64,000 nt of DNA from Branchiostoma floridae (lineage: Eukaryota > Chordata > Leptocardii > Amphioxiformes > Branchiostomatidae): positions 15,124,721-15,188,720 of the forward strand of contig NC_049995.1 in the NCBI RefSeq assembly GCF_000003815.2. Reading direction: 5' to 3'. Under the pieces are notes generated by a model. That model worked only from the letters and a program-made list of their open reading frames with translations, had not been told where the DNA came from and did not search any database. Below, piece by piece: positions 60,611-63,600 of the stretch. A program made the position numbers and the translations under genes. Every line of letters begins with the position of its first letter. The first letter of the stretch is position 1.

Positions 60611-63600
60611 ATGTGCGAAGAAGAGGTTGCTGCTCTCGTCGTTGACAACGGCTCCGGGATGTGCAAGGCCGGCTTTGCGGGCGACGACGCACCCAGGGCC
60701 GTGTTCCCCTCCATCGTGGGCCGGCCTCGGTATCAGGGCGTCATGGTAGGCATGGGACAGAAGGACGCTTATGTGGGAGACGAGGCGCAGAGCAAGAGAG
60801 GTAGGACAAATAATAAAAACTAATATTAGTTATAGATAGACAGAAAAATAGACTGTCATTGATAACCAAATCAGTGTATGTCTTTGTACAACACCTCCTA
60901 TCGTCTCCCGTTTGCTACTGTTTAAATATCTTAACACATAAGTCTCAAGTCTTCACTTAGCCTCCGTGCATATGCTTATACAACCTTCCTCGTGCATGAA
61001 CTTGCAAATAAACTTTCTCTAAGGCATCCTGACCACCAAGTATCCTATCGAGCACGGCATCGTCACCAACTGGGACGACATGGAGAAGATCTGGCACCAC
61101 ACCTTCTACAACGAGCTTCGCGTGGCCCCGGAGGAACACCCCGTGCTGCTGTCCGAGGCTCCCCTCAACCCCAAGGTAAACTTTATGGTGGCGTTTCGTT
61201 TGACTTAACTGTGTGTGACGTAACTGGTAGAGTGTTTAGTTTAGCCTGACTAAAATCGCGCTCCTAGCGGTCGGTCCTACAATTGCCACCGCCCTGGGTC
61301 TCGGGAAGGGGGTCATTAACCCCAGCCAGAGAGAGATTGTGTAAACACAGGCTAGTAGAATGTTGGACCTAGAGGTCCCGAGTTCGATACCCGCCGTGCC
61401 CTTGACATTGTGCGCTTAGGAAAGGCACTTAACACGACCTTCCTCATTTTACCCAGGTGTAGAAATGGGTACCTAGCTTCGGCCTTTCTACCTTTATTGT
61501 GACACTGTTAATATAATTCACTAACTTGAGTGCAGTGCCACATTGCCCTTGTCTGTCCAAAATCGAATACCGAAAAAATAATAATAATATGGGAATAATA
61601 ATAATGATATGAGAATTCTTAAATAAACAGCTAATTCAACTTTGGCATAACTCTAGTCTTTCGTCACTTTGATCATTCATTTGTTTTGATTCATATTTCT
61701 TTGAATAAAGGCCAACAGGGAGAAGATGACCCAGATCATGTTCGAGACCTTCAACACCCCCGCCATGTACGTGGCCATCCAGGCTGTCCTGTCCCTGTAC
61801 GCCTCCGGCCGCACCACTGGTATCGTGCTGGACACCGGCGATGGAGTCACCCACAACGTGCCCATCTATGAAGGTTTCTGCCCAAAGCATATTGAAGATG
61901 AATTTTACTTTTGATATAATGGGATGTTCTAGATACGCTAGTTTACTTAATGAATTATTCATATGTCTCGAATCAAGTACAACAGATTTCAAGAGATTCG
62001 ATGCTACAGACAGATTTGTATATATCTTTAGATATCGTCAGAACCCCCATAATGCAAAAATAGGCAAATATATCAAGGACTGCTCTGCTATTAGAAAGAA
62101 TACCGTAACTAACGATTTGCCTACTCCATTGTAATTCTATATAAAAGAATTGTGTTGGCCCTTATTGTTATATTAACTGGGTTGTTAAGCTTTATCCTAT
62201 ACCTCTATTTTGTACTCTGTTTAATAGTTGTTGCCATACATTGCATCATGTACAATTGTCGTCGTACAATAAAGTTCTTCTTTTATGAAGGCTACGCCCT
62301 GCCGCACGCCATCCTCCGTCTGGACCTGGCCGGCCGCGACCTCACAGACTACCTGATGAAGATCCTGACCGAGCGTGGATACTCCTTCGTCACAACGGGT
62401 AAGGTGTCTTCCTTGTTTTGCGAGACAGGCATACATCTCATGGAAACACTACACAGTCCATTTGTTATTTCTCTTCAACCTTTTTGATTTTATAACAAAA
62501 GAAGTTTATTTCGCACGATGACAACTTTGATACATAATCCATTGGCATAACCATCCCATAAACATCCCCTTGTTGTTAACAAGGCTGATCAATTTTCCCA
62601 GTATTTTCTCAGAATTATCGTAGAGTGGGATTTGTCATCACCAAGCACAGTACTTAGGGGTATCCTCTCTAGATAGTTTTAAAGAGCGCTTGCAGATAGA
62701 TGTGTAAAAGTTAGGTGTTACAAGTCATTCAGTGTAATATAACCAGCTGCTGCCGCGCCACCTGCCTGCGAAGCTGGTGTGTTACGTCGAAGGGCGGTTA
62801 TACCGGCTATATGTTAGATACAGAAGCAGTCTTGCCTTTAAGTATCAGAGTTAACGTTACCAACCTAGGATTGATGTGTGTTAAAATTCCTTGCTTCTCT
62901 TTCCCCAGCTGAGAGAGAAATCGTCCGTGACGTGAAGGAGAAGCTGTGTTACATCGCGCTGGACTTCGAGCAGGAGATGGCCACCGCTGCCGCCACCTCC
63001 AGTCTGGAGAAGAGCTACGAGCTGCCGGACGGACAGGTCATCACCGTCGGGAACGAGAGGTTCCGCTGCCCCGAGACACTCTTCCAACCCTCCTTCATCG
63101 GTGGGTTTCTTTTCCTTTCCTTTTTCAAAATTGTCCTCTTGATAAACAGGAAATTACAAAAGAAAGTGTGCACAATATATGGCCAAAAAGGACTTTGACG
63201 AACTAGAAATTCTTCCTCAGAACGCGGTCACATAGGTCGTGCGATCATCATACGATCGCTAACATCAGGCATTTTGAAGGACAAAAAATGTATGTCTCCT
63301 GCGAAATTCAACTGTCTTGGCACACGAAATGCTGTTTGGGATTGATTTCAGTGGTTGGTTCTGTCACGGTCTGATTGAAAATTGTGTGATCGGTCCCTTT
63401 GTGTCGGCAACTGTCACTGTCAATGTGTACATTCAAATTTAAACGAACGTTTTATTTCTACAAAGGCATGGAGTCTGCCGGCGTCCACGAGGGCACCTAC
63501 AACAGCATCATGAAGTGCGACATCGACATCCGTAAGGACCTGTACGCCAACAACGTGCTGTCCGGCGGCTCCAGCATGTACCCCGGCCTGGCCGACCGTC

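Follow-up and report, generated by a model that had tools for sequence, protein, structure and literature searches.

A LINE in a coding exon of a Branchiostoma floridae actin gene, very likely spliced out as a new intron

Intron 3 of an actin gene of Branchiostoma floridae is made up of the 3' end of a long interspersed nuclear element (LINE) and one copy of an 8-bp exon sequence, TATGAAGG, which stands at both ends of the insert. The gene occupies positions 60611..63791 on the forward strand of the window, by which we mean the whole 64,000-nucleotide stretch analyzed (contig NC_049995.1, positions 15,124,721 to 15,188,720). We consider it very likely that the LINE inserted into a coding exon of this gene and is now spliced out as a new intron. 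The insertion into the exon is as good as shown, and we strongly infer correct splicing from selection on the gene together with the position of the only suitable GT.

The gene has six coding exons (60611-60800, 61024-61175, 61711-61873, 62291-62398, 62909-63100, and 63466-63791) and encodes 376 amino acids in an open frame; from its sequence, we take it to be a muscle-type actin. With GT..AG boundaries for intron 3 at 61874-62290, its 1128 coding bases contain no stop or frameshift. Its closest relatives in the genome are three dispersed paralogues (L061, L062, and L063), which encode one identical 376-amino-acid protein, differ silently at 5 to 20 codons between pairs, and carry a single coding intron, at codon 205. 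The product of the window gene differs from theirs by two Ile/Val exchanges. The upstream region resembles that of each paralogue (76-82% over 157-271 bases), and a TATA-like box occurs in every stretch compared. Since this upstream sequence is common to all four, and since the window gene has introns of its own, it is not an intronless retrocopy.

Target duplication and LINE content of intron 3

Intron 3 (61874..62290, plus strand, 417 bp) interrupts codon 169 in phase 1, with donor AAG/GTTTCT and acceptor TTCTTCTTTTATGAAG/G. An earlier note on this DNA had placed it at codon 168/169, and counting Met as 1 puts it within codon 169. The left copy of TATGAAGG (61867..61874) forms the end of exon 3 with its first seven bases (61867-61873) and the donor G with its last (61874). 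In the right copy (62284..62291), bases 62289-62290 are the acceptor AG and the last base opens exon 4. The intron accordingly opens on the last base of the left copy and closes one base short of the end of the right copy, as the note had described, and the base positions agree with its claim that the duplication supplies AAG on the exon side and G of the donor on the left, and AG of the acceptor on the right. By hand arithmetic, an exact 8-bp match between the two junctions would arise by chance with a probability of about 1.5e-5 for a fixed alignment.

Between the two copies lies the LINE 3' end, in sense orientation (61875..62283). It includes the AATAAA (62268..62273) and the TTC-rich tail that the note had pointed out; the tail and the first T of the duplication form the pyrimidine tract TTCTTCTTTT (62275..62284). 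No other DNA is present in the intron. When the stretch 61867-62291 was compared with the genome (a single assembly of 513 Mb in 431 contigs), 40 of 1343 candidates were scored, namely the window itself and 39 others, the nearest of which was 89% identical. Among these 39, 38 began at query base 9-24 and all ended at base 412-424 of 425, and the repeat therefore fills the space between both copies of TATGAAGG; one copy on contig C11 aligned over query bases 1-8 as well. We call the insert 5'-truncated because family sequence extends upstream of its start in 14 of 20 fetched copies, while the other six end near or within the same stretch (read by eye). The note's claim that everything between the duplicated copies is LINE held for the body and needs qualifying at one base. 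Position 61875, the donor T, corresponds to A in 10 of the 20 copies, to an aligned T in three, and is unaligned in seven; on these counts, the body of the LINE perhaps starts only at 61876. The T could have been added without template at the junction, have arisen by later mutation, or have been present already in a variant source element.

The family relationships bear out the identification as a LINE. The tails of other copies are variants of AATAAAGTTCTTCTTT, and the read-through frame of the insert matches FCPKHFEDEFHF at the end of a relative's ORF2, consistent with the ORF2 remnant that had been reported. One copy retains 172 residues of the ORF2 end with a cysteine motif; a Pfam search of this ORF2 end gave no match above the cut-off. 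Open frames of 1244 residues occur in relatives (three among those 77-79% alike), and others run to as many as 1268 residues (about 53% alike). A relative in the window at 10471-14208, 53% identical to the ORF2 end (P0002) over residues 11-170, carries RVT_1 and Exo_endo_phos domains, so that a full-length relative encodes both the reverse transcriptase and the endonuclease of a LINE. It belongs to an element at 7849-14208 with an ORF1 of 831 amino acids (GDSL-like domain) and an ORF2 of 1245 amino acids, which is a distant relative of the one in intron 3. Two features, a cysteine motif close to the end of ORF2 and a GDSL-like domain encoded by ORF1, lead us to presume that the LINE is CR1/L2-like. 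Beyond the tail, the flanks of the LINE copies (L030, L011-L029) frequently open with TAT-like bases, a hint of target preference. Intron 3 itself has a mobile element as its body and a duplication of exon sequence at both ends, two of the marks of a transposon-born intron.

The empty site in other actin genes

The three closest paralogues read ATC TAT GAA GGC TAC without a break at the site, so the target of the insertion was an exon. Precise removal at 61874-62290 restores the same Ile-Tyr-Glu-Gly-Tyr, as the earlier note had proposed, in an open 376-amino-acid actin. The note had also suggested looking for an intron at codon 168/169 in other actin genes. Among 29 actin models, all covering residues 150-190, the window gene alone has one; all 28 others, the three closest genes included, lack it. 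These models came from loci cut from 30 of 81 protein-search rows. Refetched loci were counted once (L034, L035, L036, and L037 being replaced by longer refetches), an Arp3-like locus (L068) was left out, and L069 proved to be only the last exon of the window gene. The set includes two models partial at one end (L052 and L058) and one with two stops (L067, on C10); the latter also has odd introns at codons 44 and 104 and is perhaps a decaying gene. In a wider protein search, 39 listed places cross the residue of codon 169 unbroken (counted by eye), and breaks close to it were listed only for the window gene and for a gene on C18 that we take to be Arp3-like. The break in this gene aligns at 166/167 in phase 0, a different place and phase, and we rejected it as the same intron.

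Another possible history is that an older intron at this codon received the LINE and later lost its original sequence. Repeats are likewise present in introns 1 and 2 of the gene, which could be old introns that were invaded. However, the left copy of the repeat is exon sequence in the paralogues, no other DNA is left in intron 3, and none of the other models has an intron at codon 169. The note had argued against insertion into an older intron on the second of these grounds, and we find such a history extremely unlikely.

Splice signals, age, and selection

The two splice sites of intron 3 differ greatly in quality. The acceptor scored 9.37, against a median of 9.35 for 91 reference sites, and ranked first among the 32 AG sites in exon 3, insert, and exon 4. 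It would have been good from the start, because it is built from the LINE tail and the duplication, with the donor marginal. The donor GTTTCT, which the note had called weak, was scored with a matrix built on 91 donors (27 actin models) that did not include it. It reached -0.96, below all 91 (minimum 0.65, median 9.70). The bases past the donor T agree with the LINE family, and so there is no sign of later improvement of the donor. The GT at 61874 is the only one in the insert ahead of an in-frame TGA (61912..61914, codon 182), and by our reasoning exact restoration of the protein requires a GT at or beside the left duplication copy, of which 61874 is the only one.

Divergence of the insert gives an estimate of its age. 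Against a leave-one-out majority sequence of the 20 nearest copies fetched, the insert shows a Kimura two-parameter (K2P) distance of 0.053; the copies themselves range from 0.021 to 0.080. Differences fall in 20 of 396 comparable columns, and 14 of the 396 (3.5%) are private to the insert. On third positions, the branch of the window gene measures 0.128; the group of four genes is supported at 100 and the order inside it weakly (61-79). The insertion seems to date within the gene's own branch, with doubts arising from rates and gene conversion.

The gene remained under purifying selection for longer than the estimated age of the insertion. If unconstrained since then, it would be expected to have accumulated 30.6-45.9 amino-acid changes over 866 non-synonymous sites, and two were seen. 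The Poisson probability of two changes over the whole separate history is 2.5e-11 or less, and for an age of 0.01 it is 0.008. Consistent with this, dN/dS was 0.013-0.014 against each of the three paralogues.

Several observations weigh against a functional new intron. The donor ranks below every reference site and is also outscored by six of the 35 further GT sites in the stretch made up of exon 3, insert, and exon 4; the reference sites were scored by their own matrix, which flatters them, they were drawn from related genes, and GC donors were unscored. Gene conversion from paralogues could have wiped out amino-acid changes in the other exons. The age rests on 20 copies picked for similarity, and a source sublineage, indicated by a 4-base insertion in the insert that is common to the copy L012, could make the insert look too old. 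Finally, most LINE relatives lack a clear target duplication: in a loose test of 20 copies, we found an exact 10-bp duplication in one, a 12-bp duplication with a mismatch in one, 6-bp duplications in two, and none in 16, three of which had no flank and one only 15 bases.

One alternative is that the LINE killed the gene, leaving a pseudogene or null allele with the insert unspliced. In its favor, the donor is poor, retention would lead to the stop at codon 182, and the loss could be tolerated, as three other genes encode the protein with two differences. However, at an insert divergence of 3.5-5.3%, such a gene should show 31-46 amino-acid changes rather than two, and its 1128 coding bases are intact, in contrast to an insert that shows, against the majority of its relatives, three internal insertions (one common to L012) and two at its ends. 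We regard a dead gene as quite unlikely. The earlier note had left two alternatives, intron birth or a fresh allele that kills the gene if the donor is not used. Intron birth is favored by the exonic empty site and by selection, while a fresh lethal allele is not supported, because the insert is 3.5-5% diverged (3.5% private differences, K2P 0.053) yet the intact frame carries two changes where about 31 to 46 are expected.

It is also possible that the insertion is polymorphic and that many individuals carry the empty site, which would be compatible with splicing. Our search was limited to one assembly, and in it we found no second haplotype of the locus among the 40 scored of 1368 candidates, mostly LINE copies, and no second copy of the gene in a protein search of the same genome (88 of 88 scored). 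The 14 private substitutions in 396 columns suggest an age beyond ordinary allelic variation, the size of which we assume from general knowledge. We think such polymorphism unlikely.

For the birth of intron 3, we propose that the LINE was reverse-transcribed into the actin coding exon in sense orientation and 5'-truncated, duplicating the 8-bp TATGAAGG. The spliceosome would then join TATGAAG to GCTACG. In this process, the duplication would contribute AAG at the exon end, the G that opens the donor, and the AG of the acceptor; the junction T would complete the GT, and the LINE tail TTCTTCTTT would serve as the pyrimidine tract. Removal would be exact because the cut sits at the same offset in both duplication copies. 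The weak donor would probably leak, giving unspliced messages in which translation ends at codon 182 with two junctions still to follow, and these would be destroyed by nonsense-mediated decay. The allele may have been tolerated because decay removed the unspliced messages and near-identical actin genes carried the load.

Other introns of the gene and known transposon-born introns

Introns 1 and 2 are likewise absent from all other models among the 29. Intron 1 (60801..61023, plus strand; codon 64, phase 1) contains a repeat at 60809-60952 that matches 36 other places and by alignment may reach about 60972; L049 has an intron at codon 63 in phase 2. Intron 2 (61176..61710, plus strand; codon 114/115, phase 0) contains a repeat like a short interspersed nuclear element (SINE), which has matches at 61367-61587, as well as another repeat at about 61242-61354; searches of individual segments extended to all but its last 123 bases. 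The arrangement suggests that the second element sits within a SINE-like unit. Both introns were checked as possible insertions with duplications, and the repeats fill neither. Their divergence from the copy majority was 0.114 for intron 1 (4 copies) and 0.206 for intron 2 (7 copies), leaving the LINE as the least diverged of the three. Introns at codons 205 and 269 occur in 29 and 25 of the 29 models, respectively, and that at codon 269 is kept in the window gene and missing from its three sisters. It is possible that intron 2 was already present before the four genes separated and that the other three have since lost it. An ascidian cytoplasmic actin intron is reported at 114-3 in the available text of PMC2753633, and may or may not match the place of intron 2. 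Intron 3 is the only one of the three private, repeat-holding introns whose birth can be read. It is conceivable, though doubtful, that a LINE family whose pyrimidine tail abuts the duplication has a propensity for intron formation and gave rise to further introns elsewhere in this genome, and that the gene gained three mobile-element introns (codons 64, 114/115, and 169) in succession.

It is rare that the gain of an intron can be followed at single-base resolution. In the actin case, a nearly invariant gene of an invertebrate chordate offers the target site, both splice sites, the pyrimidine tract, paralogues with the empty site, and an estimate of age, and with all these parts present together, the idea that weakly spliced insertions become introns is directly testable. 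Mobile elements as sources of introns are discussed in the accessible parts of a review (PMC3488318) and of a study of human intron gain (PMC12124190), and the excerpted text of PMC3296678 cites transposon-born introns in maize, rice, and Oikopleura. A literature search of titles and abstract beginnings, with subscription papers mostly outside its reach, found no earlier report of actin intron 3.

Retrotransposon-born introns are already known from Drosophila sechellia, and actin intron 3 is a further case. The Doc elements are LINEs. According to the excerpted text of PMC3296678, intron 3 of GM26034 in D. sechellia was made by the retrotransposon Doc1053 with target duplications, and in both genes a retrotransposon insertion with such duplications turned into an intron. 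In GM26034, however, one duplication lies 15 nucleotides beyond the intron end, whereas removal in the actin gene would be exact; the Drosophila element is 98.4% like the canonical one, whereas the actin insert is about 5% diverged in a gene whose protein is nearly invariant.

Introners are similar in that mobile DNA inserting into exons creates introns, and in the available text of one survey (PMC9860276), 49 of 130 judgeable families show target duplications. That survey sets its family cut-off at four or more similar introns in one genome, whereas the actin case shows a single LINE-born intron; the words amphioxus, Branchiostoma, and chordate do not occur in the survey text available to us. 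Novel Drosophila introns, as described in the accessible text of PMC2809761, have weak splice sites and premature stops, and the model put forward there is that nonsense-mediated decay makes them tolerable. Actin intron 3 shares the weak donor and the in-frame stop on retention, and the stop at codon 182 is fitting for a model in which weak new introns are tolerated in this way. That account gives nearly all of those Drosophila introns as being of unknown sequence origin, whereas the origin of actin intron 3 is known.
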